Part shown: positions 23,079 through 57,758 of the stretch, one piece after another
How the letters are laid out: each line of letters begins with the position of its first letter
How positions within the stretch are numbered: position 1 is the stretch's first letter
Origin: Agromyces sp. NDB4Y10
GTDB lineage: Bacteria; Actinomycetota; Actinomycetes; Actinomycetales; Microbacteriaceae
Length of the DNA: 64,000 nucleotides
Direction: 5' to 3'
NCBI RefSeq assembly: GCF_001620055.1
Contig: NZ_LQGY01000022.1
Coordinates: forward strand, 1 to 64,000
The notes under the pieces: model-generated
Told to the model about the DNA's origin: nothing
The model's input: only the letters and a program-made list of their open reading frames with translations
Database searches by the model: none
Position numbers and translations under genes: made by a program

Positions 23079-23780
23079 TCAGCGCAGCGGCCACGCCCCC
23101 GACGTCGTGAACTCCGGCTCGCCGTTCGCCCGCCGCCACTGCTGATAGCTCTCGGCCTGCTCCCGGCACCAGTCGACCTGGCGTGCGTGCAGTTCGGCGA
23201 CCGCGATCGCGGCGAGCTCGGGGAACGCCCGGGCGATCGCCTGCGCCACCCGCCCCGCGGCGATCGCGTCGGCGCCGGCGTCGTGCGCCGCGGTCAGCTC
23301 GACGCCGTAGTGCTCGCACGCGGCGGTGAGCGTTCGCTTGCCCCTGCGGAAGCGGTCGACGGCCTTGTCGATGACGAGGGGGTCGACCACGTGCGCCGGC
23401 CCGCAGAACGCCTCGTGTCCGTACCGCTCGGCCTCGCGGTGCAGGACCGAGAGGTCGTAGGCGGCGTTGTACGCCACGATCGGCAGGCCCCGCGCCGCGG
23501 CATCCGTCAGCGCCTCGATGATCTCGGCCACGCCCTGCACGGCCGGCACCCCCTCGAGCCGTGCGCGCTCGGTCGTCACCCCGTGGATGAGCGTGGCCGC
23601 GGTCGGGATCTCGACGCCGGGATCGACGATCCACTGCCGCTGCTCGAGCACCTCGCCCGAGGGGCCGATCACGCCCACGTGGGCGGTGACGATGCGGCAG
23701 GTGTCGATGTCGATGCCGGTCGTCTCGAGGTCGAAGACCGCGAGGGTGTCGGCCCAGGATGCGGCGGGGGAGTGCTCCAT
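23079..23780 (-). CDS. DEDDh 3'-5' exonuclease (DNA polymerase III epsilon-like)
   Basis: The 233-residue protein shows exonuclease motif I LAVFDLETTGID (Asp, Glu), motif II in VAYNAAYDLSVL, and motif III HDAGADAIAAGRVA (His-x4-Asp). It degrades single strands or proofreads; members also trim RNA (oligoribonuclease-like). The C-terminal extension (ELHARQVDWCREQAESYQQW) is shared by actinobacterial standalone exonucleases. ATG 23780 lies 7 nt after TACCGT on its strand (23793-23788). It is divergent from the hydrolase gene, with opposing -10 boxes about 35 bp apart. Confidence 0.9.
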   Translation of the reverse strand: MEHSPAASWADTLAVFDLETTGIDIDTCRIVTAHVGVIGPSGEVLEQRQWIVDPGVEIPTAATLIHGVTTERARLEGVPAVQGVAEIIEALTDAAARGLPIVAYNAAYDLSVLHREAERYGHEAFCGPAHVVDPLVIDKAVDRFRRGKRTLTAACEHYGVELTAAHDAGADAIAAGRVAQAIARAFPELAAIAVAELHARQVDWCREQAESYQQWRRANGEPEFTTSGAWPLR

Positions 23781-23841
23781 GCCCGTCACGGTATCCACGC
23801 CCTCCGACAGCGCTCGGCAGCCGCGCCGTAGGATGGCCGGG

Positions 23842-30343: not shown

Positions 30344-30447
30344 CCCTCCATTCTGCACAGCGCGCGCGGCGGGCGCGGGCCATCGGACCTGCACGTGTGT
30401 GCGAGATGCCGCCGGTCTGTCGGGCGCCTCGACTAGAGTGCTGCAGA

Positions 30448-32268
30448 GTGAGCAACGCGACCCCCTCCGGCCATCACCTGCCGGGCACCTCGGCCGCCGA
30501 GCACCTCTCACCGTCCTTCCCCGCGCGCGCACCGTGGGGCACCGCGTCGAAGCTCCGCGCCTGGCAGGCCGAGGCGCTCGACCGCTACTTCGAGACGGAG
30601 CCGCGCGACTTCCTCGCCGCCGCGACGCCCGGCGCCGGCAAGACGACCTTCGCGCTGCGCCTCGCGGCGGAGCTGAGGGCACGTCGCACGATCGACCGGA
30701 TCACGGTCGTCGCCCCCACCGATCACCTGAAGCGCCAGTGGGCGGATGCCGCGGCGCGCATCGGGATCCGGCTCGACCCCGGGTTCCGCAACGCGCACGG
30801 CCGGTCGGCGCGGCACTACCACGGCGTCGCGGTCACGTACGCGCAGGTCGCGGTGCGGCCCGCGCTGCATCGCGAATTGACGCTCTCGGGGCGGACGCTC
30901 GTGATCCTCGACGAGGTGCACCACGGCGGTGACACGCTCTCGTGGGGCGACGCCATCCGCGAGGCGTTCGAGCCGGCCACGCGCCGGCTGTCGCTCACCG
31001 GCACCCCGTTCCGCAGCGACACCGCGCCGATCCCGTTCGTGCACTACGAACCGGACGCGCAGGGGATCCGCGTCTCGAAGACCGACTACGACTACGGCTA
31101 CGGGCGGGCCCTGCAGGACGGCGTCGTCCGACCCGTGCTGTTCATGGTCTACGCCGGCAGCATGCGCTGGCGCACCAAGGCGGGCGACGAGATGGAGGCC
31201 CGGCTCGGCGAGGACGCCACGAAGGACATCCACTCAGCCGCATGGCGAACGGCGCTCGAGCCCACGGGGGAGTGGATCCCCGCGGTGCTGCAGGCGGCCG
31301 ACCGACGGCTCACCGAGGTGCGCCACGCGATCCCCGACGCCGGGGGCCTCGTCATCGCGACCGACCAGTCCATGGCCCGCGCCTACGCCGAGATCCTCGA
31401 GCAGGTGTGCGGCGAGAAGGTCACCGTCGTGCTCTCCGACGAGAAGGAGGCGTCCGGCCGGATCGAGGAGTTCTCGAACGGCACGAGCCGCTGGATGGTC
31501 GCGGTGCGCATGGTCTCGGAGGGCGTGGATGTGCCGCGACTGGCTGTCGGGGTCTACGCGACCAGTTCGTCGACGCCGCTGTTTTTCGCGCAGGCCATCG
31601 GCCGCTTCGTGCGCGCACGCCGTCGTGGTGAGACCGCGTCGGTGTTCCTGCCCAACGTTCCCGTGCTGATGGCCCTGGCCGGCGAGCTCGAGCGGCAGCG
31701 GGACCACGCGCTCGACCGGCGTTCGGGCGACGGCGACGACGACCCCGGGCTCGACGACGGACTGCTCGAGTCGGCCAACCGCGACGAGAAGGCGTCCGAC
31801 GAGCTGCAGGACGAGTTCACCTGGCAGGCGCTCGCATCGGATGCCACGTTCGACCGCGTCGTCTACGACGGCACCGACTTCGGGACGTTCGCCGAGCCCG
31901 GCAGTGATGAGGAACTCGACTTCATCGGCCTTCCCGGCATCCTCGAACCCGACCAGGTCGCCGAGCTGCTGCGGCATCGGCAGGCGCGCCAGGCGCGGCG
32001 CGCGTCGGAGCGCCGCAAGCACGCGGCATCCGCCGACGAGGACGAGACCGCGCACGCCGAGCCGGTGGCCCTCTACCGCACGCTCAAGGAGCAGCGCTCG
32101 CTGCTGAACAGCCTGGTGGGGCTGTACGCGAGGCAGACGGGCCAGGCGCACTCGCTCGTGCACGCCGAACTGCGCCGTGCGTGCGGCGGCCCGGAGGTCG
32201 CCCAGGCGACCGTCACGCAGCTGCAGGCGCGCATCGAGCTGCTGCGCAAGCGGCTCTCCGGTCGGTGA
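30448..32268 (+). CDS. DEAD/DEAH-box superfamily 2 helicase, orphan
   Basis: The 606-residue protein has motif I ATPGAGKTTF (Lys65), motif II LVILDEVHHGGD, motif III LTGTPFRSD, and helicase C motifs with MVSEGVDVPRL and AIGRFVRARRRG. The last 150 residues (from about 450) are acidic, then Arg-rich and helical, without a domain I can name. GTG 30448 lies 8 nt after TAGAGT (30434-30439). No partner nuclease or methylase is adjacent, so restriction or defence roles are not supported. Conserved orphan helicases of this type occur in actinobacteria. Confidence 0.86.
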   Translation: MSNATPSGHHLPGTSAAEHLSPSFPARAPWGTASKLRAWQAEALDRYFETEPRDFLAAATPGAGKTTFALRLAAELRARRTIDRITVVAPTDHLKRQWADAAARIGIRLDPGFRNAHGRSARHYHGVAVTYAQVAVRPALHRELTLSGRTLVILDEVHHGGDTLSWGDAIREAFEPATRRLSLTGTPFRSDTAPIPFVHYEPDAQGIRVSKTDYDYGYGRALQDGVVRPVLFMVYAGSMRWRTKAGDEMEARLGEDATKDIHSAAWRTALEPTGEWIPAVLQAADRRLTEVRHAIPDAGGLVIATDQSMARAYAEILEQVCGEKVTVVLSDEKEASGRIEEFSNGTSRWMVAVRMVSEGVDVPRLAVGVYATSSSTPLFFAQAIGRFVRARRRGETASVFLPNVPVLMALAGELERQRDHALDRRSGDGDDDPGLDDGLLESANRDEKASDELQDEFTWQALASDATFDRVVYDGTDFGTFAEPGSDEELDFIGLPGILEPDQVAELLRHRQARQARRASERRKHAASADEDETAHAEPVALYRTLKEQRSLLNSLVGLYARQTGQAHSLVHAELRRACGGPEVAQATVTQLQARIELLRKRLSGR

Positions 32269-48409: not shown

Positions 48410-49369
48410 TCAGGCCCCGTCGCGAGGGCGCCAGGGGCCGCTCCCGCCGGGCTGGTCGCCGCGGCGGCGCAGGTACCGCTCGAACTCCTGCGCGATCGCC
48501 TCGCCGGAGGCCTCGGGGGCGTCGGCGGCGTCGCGGGCCTGCTCGAGCTGCTGGATGTAGCCGGCCATCTCGTCGTCGTCGGAGGCGAGGGCGTCCACGC
48601 TCGCCTCCCAGGCCTGCGCCTCGTCCTCGAGGGAGCCGCGCGGGATGCTGAGGCCGGTGAGCTCCTCGACCTTGCCGAGCAGCGCGAGCACGGCCTTGGG
48701 GGACGGCGCGTTGTGCACGTAGTGGGGCACGGACGCCCAGAGCGAGACGGTCGGGATCCCGACCCGCTCGGCCTGGTCGGCGATCACGCTGAGGATCCCG
48801 ACGGGACCCTCGTAGGTCGATCGCTCGACGCCGAGCGCGGCGCGCACCTCGGGGTTCTCGCTCGAGGCGAAGACGGCGAGCGGGCGCGTGTGGGGCGCGT
48901 CGGCGAGCATCGCGCCGAGCAGCACGATGCCCTCGATGTCGGCCGACAGCGCGGCGTCGACGAGCTCGGCGGCGAAGCCCTTCCACGTGCGCGCGGGCTC
49001 GGCGCCGAGGAGCACGTGGAGCGCGTCGGCACCGGGTCCGGTGACGCCCTCCTCGTCGGGCTCGGCGGGGATGCCGCTCGGGCCGAGGATCGCCGCGCCG
49101 GGCCAGGAGAGCCGCCGCGAGCCGTCCGGCTCGGACTGGATCGTCGGGCGCGTGAACTGGTAGTCGAAGTAGAGCTCGGGATCGACGGCCGCGACCTCGA
49201 CGAGGCGGAGTCGCTCGGCGAGGAGCCGGGCGGCGCCGGTGGCCGCCTCGCCCGCGTCGTTCCACCCCTCGAATGCGACGATGAGGAGTCGTCCGCCCTG
49301 GAACCCGGTCGGCTGCTGCACTCGGTTCGCCCCGCTTCCCGAACCCGGGACCTCCGGGCTCACCTCCAC
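48410..49369 (-). CDS. PAC2 family protein
   Basis: The 319-residue protein has the PAC2 start LLIVAFEGWNDAGEAATGAA, TWKGFAAELVDAA, IEGIVLLGAMLADAPHTRPL and TVSLWASVPHYVHNAPSPKA. PAC2 proteins are named after a proteasome assembly chaperone, and actinobacterial members sit beside the trmI-pup-proteasome locus. Starts are uncertain: GTG 49369, 49363 and 49321 are in frame. A TATTGT (49373-49368) lies 4 nt before the 49363 GTG. It is divergent from the HAD gene. Confidence 0.9.
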   Translation of the reverse strand: MEVSPEVPGSGSGANRVQQPTGFQGGRLLIVAFEGWNDAGEAATGAARLLAERLRLVEVAAVDPELYFDYQFTRPTIQSEPDGSRRLSWPGAAILGPSGIPAEPDEEGVTGPGADALHVLLGAEPARTWKGFAAELVDAALSADIEGIVLLGAMLADAPHTRPLAVFASSENPEVRAALGVERSTYEGPVGILSVIADQAERVGIPTVSLWASVPHYVHNAPSPKAVLALLGKVEELTGLSIPRGSLEDEAQAWEASVDALASDDDEMAGYIQQLEQARDAADAPEASGEAIAQEFERYLRRRGDQPGGSGPWRPRDGA

Positions 49370-49390
49370 AATAGGCCGTGCGGATAGAAT
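49368..49390. promoter_or_regulatory. Overlapping divergent -10 elements
   Basis: TATTGT on the minus strand (49373-49368) and TAGAAT on the plus strand (49385-49390) lie 11 bp apart and would drive the PAC2 and HAD genes in opposite directions. The expected -35 region of each falls over the other's -10, so both polymerases could not bind at once. Confidence 0.5.
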
Positions 49391-49398
49391 CGCCGGTT

Positions 49399-50073
49399 GT
49401 GACCCCAGCCCTCCCCGCCGCCGTCCTGTGGGACATGGACGGCACCCTCGTCGACACCGAGCCCTACTGGATGCGAGCCGAAGGCGAGCTCGTCCGCGAG
49501 TTCGGCGGCAGCTGGACCGACGAGGACGCCCTGCAGGTCGTCGGCGCCGGCCTCTGGGAGGCCGCCGCCGTGTTCCAGCGCGCGGGGGTCGACCTCGACG
49601 CCGACACGATCGTCGCGCGCCTGACCGCGCGCGTCCGCGAGCAGCTCGCCGAGCACGGCGTGCCGTGGCAGCCGGGCGCGCAGGCGCTGCTGAAGTCCGT
49701 TCGCGACGCGGGCATCCCGACGGCGCTCGTCACCATGTCGGTGCGCTCGATGGCCGAGGACATCGTCGCGGCGATCCCGTTCGAGGCGTTCGACCTGCTC
49801 GTCACGGGTGACGAGGTCGCCGAGCCGAAGCCCCACCCCGAGCCGTACCTGACGGCCGCCGAGCGGCTCGGCGTGGCCATCGGCGACTGCGTCGCGATCG
49901 AGGACTCGGTGCCCGGGCTCCGTTCCGCGGCATCCGCCGGCACCGTCGCGATCGGCGTGCCGCACATGGTGCCCCTCGACCCGGCCGCCGCGCAGGTCAT
50001 CTGGGACTCGCTCGACGGGCGGACCGTCGACGACATCGCCCGCGTCGTGGCATCCGCGAGGGAGACCGCATGA
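49399..50073 (+). CDS. HAD-family hydrolase (beta-phosphoglucomutase-like)
   Basis: The 224-residue protein has motif I VLWDMDGTLVDTEP (Asp12, Asp14), a helical cap, motif II VTMS, and motif III VAIEDSVPGLRSAASAG. It is a HAD sugar-phosphatase or mutase. GTG 49399 lies 8 nt after TAGAAT. Its stop overlaps the trmI ATG by ATGA, so translation is coupled, as in other actinobacterial trmI loci. Confidence 0.9.
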   Translation: MTPALPAAVLWDMDGTLVDTEPYWMRAEGELVREFGGSWTDEDALQVVGAGLWEAAAVFQRAGVDLDADTIVARLTARVREQLAEHGVPWQPGAQALLKSVRDAGIPTALVTMSVRSMAEDIVAAIPFEAFDLLVTGDEVAEPKPHPEPYLTAAERLGVAIGDCVAIEDSVPGLRSAASAGTVAIGVPHMVPLDPAAAQVIWDSLDGRTVDDIARVVASARETA

Positions 50074-51086
50074 GCCGCGGGGAGGCGAGCGGACCCTTCC
50101 GCGCCGGCGACCGCGTGCAGCTGACCGGCCCCAAGGGACGCCTGCACACGATCACCCTCGAGCCGGGCAAGCTGTTCCACTCGCACAAGGGCGCGATCGC
50201 GCACGACGACCTCATCGGCCTGCCCGACGGCTCGGTCGTGGCCAACCAGGTCGGTGTCGAGTACCTGGCCCTCCGGCCGCTGCTCAGCGACTTCGTGATG
50301 TCGATGCCGCGCGGCGCAGCGATCGTGTACCCGAAGGACGCGGCGCAGATCCTCGCGCAGGCCGACGTCTTCCCGGGCGCGACCGTCGTCGAGGCCGGCG
50401 TCGGCTCCGGCGCGCTGTCGCTGTGGCTCCTCCGCGCGATCGGCGCGCACGGCCGACTGATGTCGTTCGAGCGTCGCGAGGAGTTCGCCGACGTCGCCCG
50501 CGGCAACGTGGCCACCTTCCACGGCGAGGACCCCGAGAACTGGACCATCACCCTCGGCGATCTCGCCGAGGCCCTGCCGGAGCAGGCGCCCGAGGCATCC
50601 GTCGACCGCGTCGTGCTCGACATGCTCGCGCCGTGGGAGTGCATCGACGCCGTGTCGACCGCGCTCAAGCCCGGCGGCGTGCTGCTCTGCTACATCGCGA
50701 CGGTCACCCAGCTCTCGCGCGTCGCCGAGGCGATCCGTGCGACCGGCCGGTACACCGAGCCGCAGGCGAGCGAGACGATGGTCCGCGGATGGCACGTGCA
50801 GGGCCTCGCGGTCCGGCCCGACCACCGCATGATCGCGCACACCGGCTTCCTGCTCACCGCACGCCGGCTCGCCCCCGGCACCGTGCTGCCCGAGCTCAAG
50901 CGCCGCCCCTCGAAGACGGAGTTCAGCGACGAGGACGTCGAGGCGTGGACGCCCGGTGCGCTCGGCGAACGCAACGTCAGCGACAAGGTGCTGCGCAAGC
51001 GCGCACGCGCAGCGGATGCCGCGGCCCGCCGCTCGCGCGGCGACGACGACTCCCGACCCGACACCGAGGCGCCCGACGCCGACTAG
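50070..51086 (+). CDS. trmI: tRNA (adenine-N1)-methyltransferase TrmI (m1A58)
   Basis: The 338-residue protein matches TrmI: an N-terminal region (QLTGPKGRLHTITLEPGK), IVYPKDAAQILAQADVFPGA, SAM motif I VVEAGVGSGALSLWLL, VVLDMLAPWE, and RPDHRMIAHTGFL. A basic tail ends with SRGDDDSRPDTEAPDAD. It methylates A58 in the T loop. In Mycobacterium and Streptomyces the arc gene follows here, but here an FKBP gene follows after 39 bp. Confidence 0.93.
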   Translation: MSRGEASGPFRAGDRVQLTGPKGRLHTITLEPGKLFHSHKGAIAHDDLIGLPDGSVVANQVGVEYLALRPLLSDFVMSMPRGAAIVYPKDAAQILAQADVFPGATVVEAGVGSGALSLWLLRAIGAHGRLMSFERREEFADVARGNVATFHGEDPENWTITLGDLAEALPEQAPEASVDRVVLDMLAPWECIDAVSTALKPGGVLLCYIATVTQLSRVAEAIRATGRYTEPQASETMVRGWHVQGLAVRPDHRMIAHTGFLLTARRLAPGTVLPELKRRPSKTEFSDEDVEAWTPGALGERNVSDKVLRKRARAADAAARRSRGDDDSRPDTEAPDAD

Positions 51087-51125
51087 GCTGTCTGCGCCCG
51101 TTCCACCCAGACGAAACGAGGACCC

Positions 51126-52067
51126 GTGCGACTCCCGCTCGCGCTTCTGGCCACCGCGACCGCCGTCGCGGTCACGCTCACCGGCTGCACCGCGGCACCC
51201 GAACCCGAGGCGACCGCCGGCGCGTCGTCCGACCTCGTCGAGGTCGAGGGCGACTTCGGCCAGGAGCCCCGGGTCGACTTCCCGACGCCCGTCTCCCCGG
51301 CCGAGACGCAGTGCACCGAGATCATCGAGGGCGAAGGCGACCGGCTCGTGGCCGGCCAGCAGGCGCTCGTCGGCCTCGCGGTGTACAACGGGACGACCGG
51401 CGAGGAGATCGACGTCAACGGGTTCGGCGACCAGGAGCCCGTGCCGATCCTCCTCAGCGAGGGCGGGCTCCCCGGCATCCGGAAGGGCCTCTCGTGCGCC
51501 AGCGAGGGCTCGCGCGTCGTGATCGTCGCCCCGCCCGCCGACGCCTTCGGCGAGGAGGGCAACGCCCAGCTCGGCATCGAGCCGGACGACAGCCTCGTCA
51601 TGGTGTTCGACGTGCACCGCGCGTTCCTGCTCAAGGCGAACGGCGCGCCGCAGATCGCCCGCGACGGGTTCCCCGCCGTGGTGACGGCTCCCGACGGGCG
51701 TCCGGGCATCACCGTGCCCGACACCGAGCCCTTCGAGTCGACCGAGGTCGAGGTGCTGAAGGCCGGCTCCGGCGCGGTAGTCGAGGACGGCGACCAGGTC
51801 GTCGTGCACTACACGGGCGTGCTGTGGGACGACAACTCCGTCTTCGACTCCACTTGGGAGCGCAACGGCCCGACGGCGTTCGTCGTCGCCGAGGGCGAGG
51901 GCTCGCAGGTCGTGCCCGGGTTCGCCGAGGCGCTCATCGGCCAGAAGGTCGGCTCGCAGGTCGGAGTGGTCATCGCACCGGAGGACGGCTACGGCGACGC
52001 CGAGCAGGCGGGCATCCCGGCCGGCTCGACGCTGTTCTTCGTCATCGACATCCTCGGCGTGGTGTGA
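51126..52067 (+). CDS. FKBP-type peptidyl-prolyl isomerase lipoprotein
   Basis: The 313-residue protein has a lipoprotein signal (lipobox LTGC, Cys21) and two FKBP-like repeats: a degenerate one (about 55-170, VAGQQALVGLAVYNGTTGEE) and a C-terminal one (about 205-313) with VVVHYTGVLWDDNSVFDSTW, VVPGFAEALIGQKVGSQVG and PEDGYGD. Likely an exported folding helper. In other actinobacteria such genes lie between pafA and pafB. GTG 51126 with a GAGG upstream. Confidence 0.92.
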   Translation: MRLPLALLATATAVAVTLTGCTAAPEPEATAGASSDLVEVEGDFGQEPRVDFPTPVSPAETQCTEIIEGEGDRLVAGQQALVGLAVYNGTTGEEIDVNGFGDQEPVPILLSEGGLPGIRKGLSCASEGSRVVIVAPPADAFGEEGNAQLGIEPDDSLVMVFDVHRAFLLKANGAPQIARDGFPAVVTAPDGRPGITVPDTEPFESTEVEVLKAGSGAVVEDGDQVVVHYTGVLWDDNSVFDSTWERNGPTAFVVAEGEGSQVVPGFAEALIGQKVGSQVGVVIAPEDGYGDAEQAGIPAGSTLFFVIDILGVV

Positions 52068-52118
52068 CCGGCGGGCGCGTCGTCCGCCCGTCGCACGCCG
52101 GTCAGTATGATCGCTGAC

Positions 52119-53138
52119 GTGGCGTCATCCAAGCGCTCGGGGGAGCCGAGGATCCCGGTCGAGGACCGGCTCTTCAGCCTCGTCCTCGCGCTGCTCGCGA
52201 CCGAGACCGGGCTGCTGAAGTCCGAGATCCTCTCGACGGTGCGCGGCTACGCCGAGCGCTACGACGATCGCGGCGGCAACGCCAACCTCGAGCGCCAGTT
52301 CGAGCGCGACAAGGACGAGATCCGCGACCTCGGCATCCCGCTCGAGACGATCGAGTCGCCCGACCGACCGGGCGACAACCAGGCGCTGCGCTACCGGATC
52401 CCGAAGGGCGACTACGACCTCCCGGTCGACGTCCGGTTCACGCCCGACGAGCTCGCCCTGCTCGGCCTCGCCGCCGAGGTCTGGCGCGAGGCCTCGCTGT
52501 CCTCCGACTCGCAGCGTGCGCTCACGAAGCTCCGATCGCTCGGCATCGAGCCGCGTGAGCCCGTGATCGGCTACGCGCCGCGGCTCCGGGTGCGAGAGGC
52601 CGCGTTCGAGCCGATCCGGCAGGCGCTCGACAAGCGGCAGCGCGTCCGGTTCCGCTACCTCAAGCCGGGGGAGCGCGAGCCGAGGCTGCGCACCGTCGAG
52701 CCGCACGCGGTCGTGCTCCACGAGGGTCGCTGGCACCTGCACGGCCGTGACGTCGACGCGGGCGCCCCGCGCACGTTCCTCCTCTCGCGCATCGTCGGCG
52801 ACGTGCAGTCGCTGGCCGGCAGGCCCTTCGATCCGCCGCCCGCCGACGTGCAGGACCGGGCGCTCGCCGACCTGCGGGCGCTGCGGCAGGCCAACATCGC
52901 CGACCTCGCGGTGACCGCGGGCTCCGACGCCGAGGTGCGCCTCGGCAAGCGGGCGGTGGAGGCCGACGACGACGCGGGCGTCATCCGGCTGCACTACACG
53001 GATGCCGCCGTCTTCGCCGACGAACTGGCCTCGTACGGCCCGGAGGTCCGTGTGCTCTCACCCTCGACGCTGCGTGACGCCGTCCGCGAGCGGCTCGCCG
53101 CGGTCGCGGCCACCCACCGCCCGGGAGCCGATCGATGA
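52119..53138 (+). CDS. pafB: WYL-domain transcriptional regulator PafB
   Basis: The 339-residue protein has an N-terminal winged helix (VEDRLFSLVLALLATETGLL) and a WYL domain (RVRFRYLKPGEREPRLRTVE, HEGRWHLHGRD in the W-Y-L position), then a C-terminal WCX region. With PafC it activates LexA-independent DNA-damage genes in mycobacteria. GTG 52119 lies 7 nt after TATGAT (52106-52111). The upstream pup-proteasome genes are absent. Confidence 0.9.
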   Translation: MASSKRSGEPRIPVEDRLFSLVLALLATETGLLKSEILSTVRGYAERYDDRGGNANLERQFERDKDEIRDLGIPLETIESPDRPGDNQALRYRIPKGDYDLPVDVRFTPDELALLGLAAEVWREASLSSDSQRALTKLRSLGIEPREPVIGYAPRLRVREAAFEPIRQALDKRQRVRFRYLKPGEREPRLRTVEPHAVVLHEGRWHLHGRDVDAGAPRTFLLSRIVGDVQSLAGRPFDPPPADVQDRALADLRALRQANIADLAVTAGSDAEVRLGKRAVEADDDAGVIRLHYTDAAVFADELASYGPEVRVLSPSTLRDAVRERLAAVAATHRPGADR

Positions 53139-54151
53139 GCGCGTCGCCGCGTCGGCCCGCCGGGATGCGCGGGCCCGACAAGCTCGTGTTCCTGCTCGCC
53201 CTCGTCCCGTACCTGCTCGAGCAGCGCGTGGTCGACGTCTCCGAGGCCGCTGCGCACTTCGGGGTGGGCGAGGAGGAGATCCGCGACGCGGTCCGGCTGA
53301 TCGCCACGTCGGGCCTGCCGGGCGCGACCGGGACCTACCAGCCGAACGACCTGTTCGACATCGACTGGGACTCCTTCGAGGAGGACGACGTCATCGTGAT
53401 CGTCCACCACGTGGCGATCGACGACGCCCCCCGGCTGTCGGCGCGCGAGGCGGCGGCGCTCATCGCCGGACTCCAGTACCTCTCGGCGTCGCCCGAGAAC
53501 GCCGGGAGCGCCTCGCTCGCCGCGCTCACCGAGAAGCTCCGCGCGGGCGCGTCCGCCGCTCCCAGCCGGCTCGCCGTCGCCGAGGAGGCCGCCGATGCAT
53601 CGCTCGCCGTGGTTCGGCGGGCCGTGGCATCCGGTCGTCAGCTCGAGTTCGACTACCTCAACGCGCGAGGGGAGCGCCGACGCCGGCGCGTGGATCCCCT
53701 GCGCATCGCCTCGCTCGGCGCCGACTGGTACCTGCAGGCGTTCGACCACCTCCGCGAGGAGGTCCGGAACTTCCGCATCGACCGGATGAGCGGGCTCGAG
53801 GTCGCCGACGAGCCGATCGCCGACCACTCCGACCGGCCGATCCCCGAGACGCTCTTCCAGGCGTCCGACACCGATCTCGAGGTCGTCGTCGACGTGGCGC
53901 CGGCGACGCTGCCACTCCTGGCGGACTACCTCGCCGACTCGACCACGACCGAGGTCGACGGGCGGCTCCGCGTGACCCTTCGCCTCGCCCACGTGCACGG
54001 CCTCAAGCGCCTGGTCGCGGGTCTGCCCGGACTGGTGACGGTCGTCGCCCCGGAGGAGGCGCGTGCGGTGGTCGCGGAGTGGGCCGAGGCGGGCCTGGCC
54101 GGCTACCCGGATGACGACCCCGGTGCGTCGTCCGCGCCGGCCGACGGGTGA
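53135..54151 (+). CDS. pafC: WYL-domain transcriptional regulator PafC
   Basis: The 338-residue partner of PafB has its own winged helix (DKLVFLLALVPYLLEQRVVD), a WYL domain with LEFDYLNARGERRRRRVDPL and ADWYLQAFD, and a WCX-like end. ATG 53135 overlaps the pafB stop by ATGA. Tandem coupled pafBC matches the mycobacterial arrangement. Confidence 0.92.
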   Translation: MSASPRRPAGMRGPDKLVFLLALVPYLLEQRVVDVSEAAAHFGVGEEEIRDAVRLIATSGLPGATGTYQPNDLFDIDWDSFEEDDVIVIVHHVAIDDAPRLSAREAAALIAGLQYLSASPENAGSASLAALTEKLRAGASAAPSRLAVAEEAADASLAVVRRAVASGRQLEFDYLNARGERRRRRVDPLRIASLGADWYLQAFDHLREEVRNFRIDRMSGLEVADEPIADHSDRPIPETLFQASDTDLEVVVDVAPATLPLLADYLADSTTTEVDGRLRVTLRLAHVHGLKRLVAGLPGLVTVVAPEEARAVVAEWAEAGLAGYPDDDPGASSAPADG

Positions 54152-54215: not shown

Positions 54216-54515
54216 ATGTTTGGAAACGCCTTCACCGGTTGGCACGCGCTGATCATCCTGCTGGTGATCCTGCTGCTGTTCGGTGCGCCGAAGCTTCCCG
54301 CCCTCGCGCGGAGCCTGGGCCAGTCGATGAAGATCCTGAAGAACGAGGTCCGGTCGGACTCCGACGAGCGCACCGACGCGTCCGACGGCACGACGACCAC
54401 CGACGCGCCCGTCACGGGCACGTCGACCGCGTCGAACGCATCGACCACCACGCCGCCCGCGTCGTCGACGACCGGTGATCCGGCGAAGCGCACGGACGCC
54501 GGCCCGAACGCCTAG
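54216..54515 (+). CDS. tatA: Twin-arginine translocase subunit TatA
   Basis: The 99-residue protein has one N-terminal helix (WHALIILLVILLLFGAPKLP) ending in the F-G-x-x-K-L-P hinge, an amphipathic helix ARSLGQSMKILKNEV and a Thr/Ser/Asp-rich tail. It forms the Tat pore. TAGACT (54175-54180) gives a short leader. tatC follows 3 bp after its stop. Confidence 0.93.
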   Translation: MFGNAFTGWHALIILLVILLLFGAPKLPALARSLGQSMKILKNEVRSDSDERTDASDGTTTTDAPVTGTSTASNASTTTPPASSTTGDPAKRTDAGPNA

Positions 54516-54518
54516 CCC

Positions 54519-55319
54519 GTGTCGGCCGTGAAGGATCGCGGCACCGCGAACCGCGAGAAGCGGATGTCGCTCGGCGCGCACCTCCTCGAGTTGCGCAAGC
54601 GCCTCTTCACGTCGGCGATCGCCATCGTCGTCGGTGCGGTCGCCGGGTGGATCCTCACCGACCTGTTCGTGTGGAACGCCCTGCAGGCGCCGGTCCAGGC
54701 CGTCGCCGAGGCGCACGGCGGCGACGGGTCGGGCATCATCTTCCCGACCATCTCGAGCGCGTTCGACCTGCGGCTGCAGGTCGCGTTCACGGTGGGCATC
54801 GTCATCTCGAGCCCGGTCTGGCTGTACCAGATCTTCGCGTTCCTGGTCCCCGGGCTGAACGCTCGCGAACGCCGCTTCACCTACATCTTCCTGGCCTCCG
54901 CCATCCCGCTCTTCCTCGCCGGGTGCGCCGCCGGGTGGTTCGTGCTGCCGAACATCGTGAAGCTCATGACCGGGTTCGTCCCGGAGGGCAGCGAGTCGCT
55001 GCTCCTCGCGAAGGAGTACTACGACTTCGTGCTGAAGCTGGTCCTGGCGATCGGCATCGCGTTCGTCGTGCCGGTGTTCATCGTGCTGCTGAACCTCGCC
55101 GGGGTGCTCAGCGCGGCGTCGATCATCAAGAGCTGGCGGGTCGCCATCCTCGTCATCACGCTGTTCACCGCGATCGCCACCCCGTCGGCCGACGTCGTCT
55201 CGATGTTCATGCTCGCGATCCCGATGATCGGGCTCTACTTCGCGGCGTGGGGCATCGCGCATCTGCACGACAAGCGCGTCGCCAAGCGCAATCAGCTGGA
55301 GTTCGGCAGTCCTGTCTAG
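54519..55319 (+). CDS. tatC: Twin-arginine translocase subunit TatC
   Basis: The 266-residue protein has six membrane helices and the N-terminal MSLGAHLLELRKRLFTSAIA (TatC signature with charged start), FPTISSAFDLRLQVAFTVG, and PTTP-like FSAIATPSADVVSMFML near the end. It recognises twin-arginine signal peptides. The start is GTG 54519 (or GTG 54528). Its TAG stop lies inside the next gene's -10 hexamer. Confidence 0.93.
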   Translation: MSAVKDRGTANREKRMSLGAHLLELRKRLFTSAIAIVVGAVAGWILTDLFVWNALQAPVQAVAEAHGGDGSGIIFPTISSAFDLRLQVAFTVGIVISSPVWLYQIFAFLVPGLNARERRFTYIFLASAIPLFLAGCAAGWFVLPNIVKLMTGFVPEGSESLLLAKEYYDFVLKLVLAIGIAFVVPVFIVLLNLAGVLSAASIIKSWRVAILVITLFTAIATPSADVVSMFMLAIPMIGLYFAAWGIAHLHDKRVAKRNQLEFGSPV

Positions 55320-55328
55320 GCTGGGGGG

Positions 55329-57758
55329 ATGAGCCTCTCGCCGGCGGAACGCTACGCATTGTCCCGGCAGCAACGGCGCCAGCCGAGGCTGCAGGAGTTC
55401 GCGGCGAACCTGTCCTTCGACCTCGACCCGTTCCAGCGCGCCGCGTGCGGCGCCCTCGACGAAGGGCGGAGCGTGCTGGTCGCCGCACCCACCGGCGCGG
55501 GCAAGACGGTGGTCGCGGAGTACGCGGTCTACCTCGCGATGGAGTCGGGCGACGAGAAGGTGTTCTACACGACGCCCATCAAGGCGCTCTCGAACCAGAA
55601 GTACCAGGAGTTCGTCGACACCTGGGGGGCCCGCAACGTCGGCCTGCTCACCGGCGACACGAACATCAACTCCGGCGCTCGCATCGTGGTGATGACCACC
55701 GAGGTCCTCCGCAACATGCTCTACGCCGACTCGCCGCTGCTCGACCGGCTCGCGTACGTCGTCATGGACGAGGTGCACTACCTCGCCGACCGATTCCGCG
55801 GCGCGGTGTGGGAGGAGGTCATCATCCACCTCCCGGAGGTGGTGCGCCTGGTCTCCCTGAGCGCCACGGTGTCCAACGCCGAGGAGTTCGGCGACTGGCT
55901 GCAGGCCGTGCGCGGCGACACGGACGTGATCGTCTCCGAGCAGCGGCCGGTACCCCTCGAGCAGCACGTGCTCGCGGGCGGGAAGCTCGTGGACCTCTTC
56001 GACTCATCGGGGCAGGCGGCCACCCATCGGGTGAATCCCGAGCTCCAGCGCCTCGCCCGCGCGGGCGGGCGGTCGATCCGGGGCCGTTCGGAACGCGGGC
56101 GGCGCGGAAGCGACCGCGGCCGGTTCCACCAGGGCGGGCACGGTGCCTCGCGCATCGACCGGCCGGATGTGGTCGCCCTGCTGCACTCCAAGCACCTGCT
56201 GCCCGCGATCGTGTTCATCTTCTCCCGCGCCGGCTGCGACCAGGCGGTCCGCCAGGTGCTCCGCAGCGGCATCCGCCTCACCGACACGGCCGAACGAGAT
56301 GAGATCCGATCCATCGTCGAGGAGCGCGCCCGGATGCTGCGCGACGACGACCTGGCCGTGCTCGGCTACTGGGAGTGGCTCGAGGGCCTGCAGCGAGGCG
56401 TGGCGGCGCACCACGCGGGCATGCTGCCGACCTTCAAGGAGATCGTCGAGGACCTCTTCCAGCGCAAGCTCCTGAAGGTCGTGTTCGCCACCGAGACCCT
56501 GGCGCTCGGCGTCAACATGCCCGCGCGCTCGGTCGTGCTCGAGAAGCTGGAGAAGTTCAACGGCGAGGCGCGCGTGCCCATCACGCCGGGGGAGTACACC
56601 CAGCTCACCGGTCGAGCGGGGCGACGTGGCATCGACGTCGAGGGCCATTCCGTGATCCAGTGGGTCGACGGGCTCGATCCCGAGGCGGTGGCCTCGCTGG
56701 CGTCCCGGCGCAGCTATCCGCTGAACTCCAGCTTCTCGCCGACCTACAACATGGCCGTGAACCTCGTCGACCAGTTCGGCCGCGAGCGGACCCGTCAGGT
56801 GCTCGAGCTGTCGTTCGCGCAGTTCCAGGCCGACCGCGCGGTCGTCGACCTCGCCCGAACCCTGCGCAAGCAGGAGGAGTCGATGGCCGGCTTCGAGCGC
56901 GCGATGCAGTGCCACCTGGGCGACTTCGGCGAGTACGCGGGGATCCGTCGGCGCATCGCCGACCTCGAGCGGCAGCAGGCGAAGGGCAACCCGACCCACG
57001 CCCAACGCGAGCGGATGCAGCGGGAGCTGGCCTCCGAGCGCAAGCGCCTCCGGGCGCATCCGTGCCACGGTTGCGCCGAGCGCGAGCAGCACGCCCGCTG
57101 GGCCGAGCGGTGGTGGCGCCTGAAGCGAGACCACGACGACCTCAGCCGCCAGATCCGGACCCGCACCGGCCAGGTCGCCAAGCGGTTCGACCGGGTCGCC
57201 GAGGTGCTCGTGCAGCTCGGCTACCTCGAGTCGGACGGGCAGGGCGGGCTCGTCTCCACGGCGGCGGGTCGCACCCTGAAGCGCATCTACGGCGAACGCG
57301 ACCTGCTCGTGGCCGAATCCCTCCGGCGCGACCTGTGGGCCGGCCTCGACGTCGCGGGCATCGCCGCGATGGCGGCCGCGCTCGTGTACGAGCCGCGTCG
57401 GGACGAGCGCGGCCTGCAGTTCCGGCTCCCGAAGGGACCGTTCCGCGCGGCGTTCGATCGCACGACCGATGCGTGGAGCGAACTCGACGACGTCGAGCGC
57501 GACCACCGCCTGCCGGGGACCGAGCAGCCGTCTCCGGCGCTCTCGGCGGCCATGCACGCCTGGGCCCGCGGCGCGGCGCTCGGCAGCGTCCTGTCGGAGA
57601 CCGAGCTCGCCGCGGGCGACTTCGTGCGCCTGTCCAAGCAGGTCATCGACCTCCTCGACCAGATCTCGATCGTGGCCGACGCCGAGCTGGGCGCCACCGC
57701 GCGCGCCGCGATCGACGCCGTCCGGCGCGGCGTGGTCGCGTACGGTGCCGCCGCATGA
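55329..57758 (+). CDS. helY: HelY/Ski2-like DEAD/DEAH-box helicase
   Basis: The 809-residue helicase has a Walker A loop AAPTGAGKTVVAEYAVYLAM, TTPIKALSNQKYQEF, motif II VVMDEVHYLADRFRGAVWE, SLSATVSNAEEFGDW, a charged insert (SIRGRSERGRRGSDRGRF), and the HGAGMLP-like HHAGMLPTFKEIVEDLF. Ski2/Mtr4-like family, probably acting on RNA. ATG 55329 is 6 nt after TAGGCT (55317-55322), whose TAG is the tatC stop. Confidence 0.93.
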   Translation: MSLSPAERYALSRQQRRQPRLQEFAANLSFDLDPFQRAACGALDEGRSVLVAAPTGAGKTVVAEYAVYLAMESGDEKVFYTTPIKALSNQKYQEFVDTWGARNVGLLTGDTNINSGARIVVMTTEVLRNMLYADSPLLDRLAYVVMDEVHYLADRFRGAVWEEVIIHLPEVVRLVSLSATVSNAEEFGDWLQAVRGDTDVIVSEQRPVPLEQHVLAGGKLVDLFDSSGQAATHRVNPELQRLARAGGRSIRGRSERGRRGSDRGRFHQGGHGASRIDRPDVVALLHSKHLLPAIVFIFSRAGCDQAVRQVLRSGIRLTDTAERDEIRSIVEERARMLRDDDLAVLGYWEWLEGLQRGVAAHHAGMLPTFKEIVEDLFQRKLLKVVFATETLALGVNMPARSVVLEKLEKFNGEARVPITPGEYTQLTGRAGRRGIDVEGHSVIQWVDGLDPEAVASLASRRSYPLNSSFSPTYNMAVNLVDQFGRERTRQVLELSFAQFQADRAVVDLARTLRKQEESMAGFERAMQCHLGDFGEYAGIRRRIADLERQQAKGNPTHAQRERMQRELASERKRLRAHPCHGCAEREQHARWAERWWRLKRDHDDLSRQIRTRTGQVAKRFDRVAEVLVQLGYLESDGQGGLVSTAAGRTLKRIYGERDLLVAESLRRDLWAGLDVAGIAAMAAALVYEPRRDERGLQFRLPKGPFRAAFDRTTDAWSELDDVERDHRLPGTEQPSPALSAAMHAWARGAALGSVLSETELAAGDFVRLSKQVIDLLDQISIVADAELGATARAAIDAVRRGVVAYGAAA

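Follow-up and report, generated by a model that had tools for sequence, protein, structure and literature searches.

Absence of the Pup-proteasome block, retention of PafBC and altered PafB sensor residues in Microbacteriaceae

PafBC is named as a proteasome accessory factor, and the locus described here raises the question of what becomes of this protein pair where the proteasome genes are missing. The locus lies in the first 64,000 nucleotides of contig NZ_LQGY01000022.1 of the soil bacterium Agromyces sp. NDB4Y10 (this whole stretch is referred to as the window), in which pafB and pafC stand behind trmI and the gene for an FKBP-type peptidyl-prolyl isomerase, and in which nothing of the Pup-proteasome block (arc, dop, pup, prcBA and pafA) is found between the latter two. 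A preliminary description of the window proposed that the block had been cleanly lost, that PafBC had been spared, and that PafBC must be working without pupylation. The data presented here address these proposals at the level of the locus, the genome and the family Microbacteriaceae.

The trmI-FKBP junction and the absent block

The preliminary description put 39 bp between trmI and the FKBP gene, and reading of the coordinates bears this out: trmI ends at 51086 and the FKBP gene starts at 51126, which leaves no room for pup, prc, dop, arc or pafA. The reported absence of arc, dop, pup, prc and pafA frames at the locus is confirmed by this gap together with the genome searches described below, and frames assigned from open reading frames and Pfam matches place PAC2, HAD, trmI, FKBP, pafB, pafC, tatA, tatC and helY in the positions originally given (Table 1). 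The nearest named relatives of TrmI are from Agromyces (identity 87-94%). pafB and pafC adjoin, both products carry WYL and WCX domains and PafC carries HTH_PafC, i.e. the two have the architecture of PafBC; in comparisons with solved chains, PafB matches 6sj9 (6e-39) and 9fnd (3.1e-37) and PafC matches 6sj9 (5.4e-42) and 7p5x (1.4e-23). In NCBIfam no family was matched at E 1e-3 by the PAC2, PafB and PafC proteins of the window.

The genome (3.34 Mb, 69 contigs, completeness 100, contamination 0.02) gave zero matches to Pup (PF05639, a search made only in this genome), to Pup_ligase (PafA/Dop; PF03136), to Proteasome (PF00227) and to the Mpa/ARC OB domain (PF16450). Among 14 control genomes, that of Corynebacterium glutamicum was matched by the Pup, Pup_ligase and PF16450 profiles, and PF00227 matched ten, Corynebacterium not among them. 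Thus, the whole-genome search for Arc, Dop, Pup, PrcA/B and PafA that had been advised was run and found no intact operon elsewhere. Across Microbacteriaceae, PF03136 matched none of 299 genomes (none of the 268 of good quality) and PF00227 none of 241 good-quality genomes. A single marginal PF00227 match among 269 genomes, in an 87%-complete genome (E 4e-4, 48 positions), was rejected as a proteasome, and partial, marginal PF16450 matches in 5 of 298 genomes (E 2e-4 to 9e-4), two of which score 23.1 bits against a cut-off of 23, were rejected as ARC; five of these six marginal places were examined as frames only. In an order-wide sample PF03136 matched 226 of 248 genomes; the 22 others comprise 18 Microbacteriaceae and four genomes (G301, G349, G468 and G491) of one further family (f4), to which the non-matching genomes outside Microbacteriaceae are confined, and each of the 19 other families has at least one match. 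Given that the absence is family-wide, an assembly gap is rejected as its explanation, and the loss of the Pup-proteasome block is shared by the family as far as it was sampled and is not peculiar to this genome. Proteasomes have been called nearly universal in actinobacteria, and were absent in two of the four organisms of an earlier survey (PMC4255298). In the open literature, subscription papers being outside the search, we found no statement that Microbacteriaceae lack the Pup-proteasome system; this lack may be known already to specialists and is perhaps stated in subscription papers.

The comparison across Microbacteriaceae covered 100 loci. Twenty were taken from among the top HTH_PafC matches; the other 80, the best of 595 confirmed loci, lean towards close relatives (Agromyces, Cryobacterium, Leifsonia, Clavibacter, Frigoribacterium, Microbacterium, Leucobacter, Curtobacterium and others) and include three that, judged by identical PafB, duplicate loci of the first set. 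The order HAD-trmI-FKBP-pafB-pafC-tatA-tatC-helY is found in 92 of the 100; of the remaining eight, six lack a tatA hit only and two are truncated by contig ends. In the alignment the gap between trmI and FKBP is short in every locus (19-434, median 125), and PafC adjoins PafB in all but one (L156), a 3.7-kb contig ending in PafB. PAC2, the retention of which the preliminary description had placed beside that of PafBC, is present at the locus as stated; since it occupies the same place in 20/20 loci of the 20-locus set, its retention is uninformative about proteasomes here and does not stand as a proteasome-related signal.

Other families are represented by 18 stretches from 17 genomes. In all 14 loci with both genes in range (11 families), trmI and FKBP lie 5.2-15.7 kb apart and a Pup_ligase match falls between them by coordinates. 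Read gene by gene, this slot holds in one locus (L134, genome G378) an AAA protein with proteasomal-ATPase OB domains (ARC), Pup_ligase, Pup, two proteasome subunits and a second Pup_ligase; the frames picked in another (L131, G299) are Pup_ligase, two proteasome subunits and Pup_ligase. Taken together with the 39-bp junction, these contents indicate that the block is missing in its entirety, from the end of trmI to the start of FKBP. The locus is also present in actinobacteria outside the order (PMC8223512). The proposed clean loss that spared PafBC is therefore supported by the comparison with other-family loci and by the failed search for an operon elsewhere; the loss itself is ordinary gene loss. 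In trees of TrmI and of PafB, a single branch separates Microbacteriaceae from the rest. The record 'Planococcus sp. APC 4015' (L225) groups with Microbacterium in both trees and looks mislabelled.

PafBC-type promoter sites and the recA gene

The mycobacterial PafBC motif is tTGTCRgtg-8nt-TannnT (PMC5656591). With one mismatch allowed, it has 81 sites in the Agromyces genome versus 25 for the reversed pattern; a relaxed form, TGTCRG-N10-TANNNT, which was picked after the result of the one-mismatch scan had been viewed, has 34 sites versus two in the reversed control, and position 7, relaxed relative to the published motif, is T in seven of the 34. Of the 34 frames downstream of these sites, 30 were scanned with Pfam, mostly truncated to 400 residues where they were long; RecA was identified from its sequence, and the frames at three sites (L083, L092 and L108) were left out of the scan. 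Fifteen of the 34 downstream genes are for DNA repair, replication, a nuclease or a helicase: a 5'-3' exonuclease (polA), uvrA, uvrB, uvrD, a second UvrD-type helicase, SRAP, recA, a RadA-like AAA protein, ruvA, MgsA/RarA, dnaX, a UvrB_inter protein, two RNase_T exonucleases and a ResIII helicase. Gene names that go further than the Pfam ones are our own assignments, the UvrB_inter protein, for instance, being taken as mfd. Sites of this RecA-independent promoter type are, thus, present upstream of repair genes, where the preliminary description had suggested seeking PafBC-type motifs. At recA itself an SOS-like palindrome lies 88 bp upstream of the PafBC site; as expected, the two fit two-pathway control.

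At 21 of the 34 sites the chosen start codon follows within 6-9 nt, a spacing met at 111 of 3000 positions drawn at random. It is also seen with bare TANNNT hexamers of the window, 17 of 54 having a plausible start 6-9 nt downstream, which points to leaderless transcripts being widespread in this genome. As the enrichment is partial (p 2.7e-4), leaderless promoters were rejected as a special trait of the regulon.

A genome-wide motif count as the sole test of PafC dependence was rejected as too noisy in small genomes, and the recA site was added. Approximately 450 bp upstream of recA were inspected in 30 genomes, i.e. all six without an HTH_PafC match, four of the five with a match of E above 1e-5, 13 PafC-bearing family members and seven outgroups; G277 was excluded because a contig boundary truncates its gene. 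Of the 13 PafC-bearing family members, 10 have the exact site and two more a site with one mismatch; the exact site occurs in 0 of 5 family genomes without an HTH_PafC match, and in 7 of 7 outgroup genomes, all of which carry Pup_ligase (background per 500 bp: 4.3% exact, 12% with one mismatch). The motif count over whole genomes points the same way: among the 52 genomes below 2 Mb, the nine with no PafC or a weak one total 98 sites versus 101 in the control, and the other 43 total 495 versus 258 (p 1.7e-5). The recA site, therefore, tracks PafC and not pupylation.

PafBC and the Pup-proteasome genes come apart in the other direction as well. In one genus (g105) of family f4, all nine sampled genomes have Pup_ligase matches and none has an HTH_PafC match. 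Six other-family stretches (L132, L137, L138, L139, L145 and L146) showed no PafB or PafC at the locus, and in three genomes of this kind, from three other families (G340, G410 and G362), adjacent pafB-pafC pairs lie ~138, 173 and 409 kb, respectively, from the best Pup_ligase match (Table 1). Linkage of PafBC to the Pup-proteasome locus is common and not obligatory.

The PafB sensor pocket

PafBC of Mycobacterium smegmatis is activated by single-stranded DNA (ssDNA) in its WYL pockets; in vitro, ssDNA binding is lost in the PafB variants R211A/R214A, R181A, R181A/R204A/R208A and Y196A, and in cells the PafB R211A/R214A strain is only moderately less viable (PMC11804915). Alignment of the window PafB to solved chains shows that, of the six residues in these variants, three are kept, i.e. 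R195 (M. smegmatis R181), R222 (R208) and R228 (R214), and three are replaced, i.e. H210 (Y196), A218 (R204) and L225 (R211). This pattern extends to the 98 distinct family PafBs, the window sequence included: R181 and R214 are Arg in 98/98 and R208 is Arg in 79 and Lys in 19; Y196 is His in 84, Met in seven, Leu in six, Phe in one and Tyr in none; R204 is Arg in only six; and R211 is Leu in 98/98. By comparison, the 29 other-family PafBs have Tyr at Y196 and Arg at R204, R208 and R214 throughout, Arg (27) or Lys (2) at R211, and Arg (28) or Val (1) at R181. Four PafB columns switch between the family and nine outgroup rows, and among these R211 is the sole one fixed on both sides in that set, two of the 29 other-family PafBs having Lys there. 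Trp 209 is present in 101/101 rows, and near-invariant columns amount to 22 of 76 in the helix-turn-helix (HTH) domain and 11 of 64 in WYL. In the window PafC, W198-Y199-L200 and R214/R217 (M. smegmatis R201/R204) are kept, and in 97 distinct family PafCs the WYL Trp is conserved in 97, the Tyr in 96 and Arg at the R204 position in 94. At the R201 position 24 of the 97 have His and one has Leu, and 22 of these 25 non-Arg loci are titled Microbacterium. The non-Arg Microbacterium loci fall between L191 and L227.

The PafB ssDNA-sensor positions are thus altered in Microbacteriaceae, which may change sensing. Because the accessible part of PMC11804915 reports no single R211 or R204 substitutions, the ssDNA binding of the family PafB is not predictable from that work; the conservation of the pocket in its new form points to re-tuning rather than decay. 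The stem-to-depth ratio in FastTree phylogenies, a descriptive measure with 5-7 outgroup rows, is 2.04 for PafB, 1.90 for PafC, 1.41 for HelY, 1.09 for TatC, 1.05 for TrmI and 0.48 for FKBP, and the stem branch amounts to 1.49 changes per column in PafB and 0.39 in TrmI. Descriptively, then, along the branch that saw the loss of the Pup system both PafBC subunits appear to have changed more than their neighbors.

A proposed history, its alternatives and its meaning

Combining the locus, promoter and pocket data, we consider it very probable that the block was deleted in an ancestor of the family, and that PafBC is still a DNA-damage activator, with a changed PafB pocket. In this model, (i) the ancestor of Microbacteriaceae would have lost everything from arc through pafA by one deletion that began and ended between trmI and FKBP, and the shared junction and the position of the family on one side of the TrmI and PafB branches suggest a single event on its stem; (ii) pafBC would have been left beside tatAC-helY and would continue as a LexA-independent activator that redirects the housekeeping RNA polymerase to TGTCRG-N10-TANNNT promoters, probably activating recA and nucleotide-excision, recombination and polymerase genes; (iii) with pupylation gone, the response would have to be switched off by loss of the activating ligand and by other proteases; and (iv) the PafB WYL pocket would have changed at Y196, R204 and R211, with R181, R208 (Arg or Lys), R214 and most of the PafC WYL pocket kept, and the heterodimer would most likely still sense ssDNA with changed affinity or a larger share for PafC. 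PafBC looks still functional in the family, and the proposal that it works without pupylation draws support from its conservation and from the promoter sites. We hold it possible, if on balance doubtful, that PafB is no longer the first ssDNA contact and that PafC or another ligand provides the trigger, the change having occurred on the branch of pupylation loss as if the removal of the off-switch had forced a re-tuning of the on-switch.

Several observations weigh against the proposed history. Activation by PafBC and its induction by damage in the family are here read from sequence, and because the gene losses and the PafB changes fall on the same branch, their order and causal relation cannot be told. 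Among the replaced pocket residues are ones at which mutation costs the M. smegmatis protein its ssDNA binding. The HTH_PafC profile (PF19187) matches 293 of 299 family genomes, which speaks for the retention of PafC, but the count overstates strict PafC orthology since the profile also matches Escherichia coli and Bacillus subtilis. The recA site is absent from one PafC-bearing genome (G030), present with one mismatch in a PafC-less one (G202; background 12%) and exact in one of the four weak-PafC genomes (G065), and the one-sided Fisher p values of 0.009 (9/12 versus 0/5) and 0.006 (9/12 versus 1/9), computed without G051, are optimistic because the PafC-less genomes belong to few genera and the events are non-independent. 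In the 43 PafC-bearing genomes below 2 Mb, the excess of sites over the control is modest. Finally, 19 of the 34 Agromyces sites precede transporters, hydrolases, proteins without a match and others, and are not shown to belong to repair genes, and the leaderless appearance of 21 of the 34 is only partly a feature of the regulon, leaderless starts being common genome-wide.

Could the block have moved elsewhere or be hidden in assembly gaps? An assembly of 69 contigs leaves room for this, but a completeness of 100, the lack of any Pup, PafA/Dop, proteasome or ARC match and the absence of Pup_ligase from all 299 family genomes, single-contig ones included, give it practically no probability. That Microbacteriaceae never had the block and other families gained it is hardly to be credited either: presence and absence alone do not polarise the change and our trees are unrooted as to species, but a gain would have to account for the same trmI-FKBP slot being occupied in 14 loci of 11 other families, for Pup_ligase in 19/19 other families of the order sample with absences only in f4, and for the same locus in actinobacteria outside the order (PMC8223512).

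The remaining alternatives concern PafBC itself. It might be a relic kept by linkage to tatAC-helY that no longer runs a damage response, as could be argued from the loss of pocket residues required in M. smegmatis and from the fact that its activity is predicted from sequence. We regard this as unlikely, because positions in the WYL domain of PafB are conserved in the family (Leu 225, Arg 195, Arg 228 and Trp 209 without exception) and near-invariant columns occur in the HTH and WYL domains, and because sites are enriched at repair-gene promoters and the PafC-less genomes inspected lack the exact recA site. Alternatively, the sensor differences might arise because another WYL protein displaced PafB. 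The long PafB stem compared with that of TrmI would fit such a xenologue, and a tree with PafB rows only and long branches leaves room for it; the PafC stem, however, is similarly long, and position, gene order and best structure matches all speak for PafB, which makes displacement very improbable.

Table 1. Features of the window and pafB-pafC pairs found at a distance from Pup_ligase in three other genomes
Feature	Coordinates	Strand	Evidence or remark
PAC2-family protein, left flank	48410..49369	-	Pfam PF09754 E 2.8e-51
HAD-family hydrolase	49378..50073	+	Pfam HAD_2 1.9e-28
trmI, tRNA methyltransferase, left edge of lost block	50070..51086	+	TrmI-like_N 1.1e-28, GCD14 4.7e-22
39-bp junction; arc-dop-pup-prcBA-pafA position in other families	51087..51125	.	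direct reading
FKBP-type peptidyl-prolyl isomerase, right edge of lost block	51126..52067	+	FKBP_C 5.6e-28
pafB (WYL+WCX)	52107..53138	+	WYL 1.3e-18; alignment to 6sj9, 9fnd, 7p5x
pafC (HTH_PafC+WYL+WCX)	53135..54151	+	HTH_PafC 1.6e-28; alignment to 6sj9, 7p5x
tatA	54216..54515	+	TatA_B_E 1.5e-16
tatC	54519..55319	+	TatC 9.8e-56
helY-type helicase (DEAD+DSHCT)	55329..57758	+	DSHCT 3.3e-36, DEAD 2e-27
PafBC-type site (TGTCRG-N10-TANNNT)	23788..23809	-	7 nt before start of RNase_T exonuclease gene 23082-23780
PafBC-type site	30418..30439	+	8 nt before start (30448) of ResIII/DEAD helicase gene (region 30418-32265)
Distant pafB-pafC region (L279)	G340:C1:1777100-1781500
Distant pafB-pafC region (L280)	G410:C1:2184400-2188900
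Distant pafB-pafC region (L281)	G362:C1:1783200-1787600

The closest known system is PafBC of M. smegmatis, with which the window shares the adjacent pafB-pafC genes, the WYL-WCX architecture and motif sites before recA and repair genes (PMC5656591, PMC11804915), as well as PafB R181, R208 (Arg or Lys) and R214 and the PafC WYL motif. It differs in that the Agromyces genome is without Pup ligase, Pup and proteasome, in that PafB is replaced at Y196, R204 and R211, and in the relaxed position 7 of the site. The naturally fused PafBC of Arthrobacter aurescens (6SJ9; PMC6789036) is the top structure match to both window proteins; it has Arg at the R211 position, whereas the window PafB is a separate protein with Leu there. 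Actinobacterial loci without proteasome subunits but with pupylation are alike in representing a secondary loss at the same locus; in those only prcBA was lost (PMC8223512), whereas Agromyces has also parted with the ligase, depupylase, Pup and ATPase. The Corynebacterium glutamicum control, for its part, has Pup, Pup_ligase and PF16450 matches and no PF00227 match.

The link between PafBC and pupylation has been taken to be a functional one (PMC6789036). A family that has lost pupylation and still carries PafBC with its repair promoters uncouples the two systems. What is new here is the alteration of the PafB ssDNA-sensor residues across Microbacteriaceae, and the 98 distinct PafBs of the family constitute natural variants with which ssDNA activation, and the shut-off of the response without targeted degradation, may be addressed.

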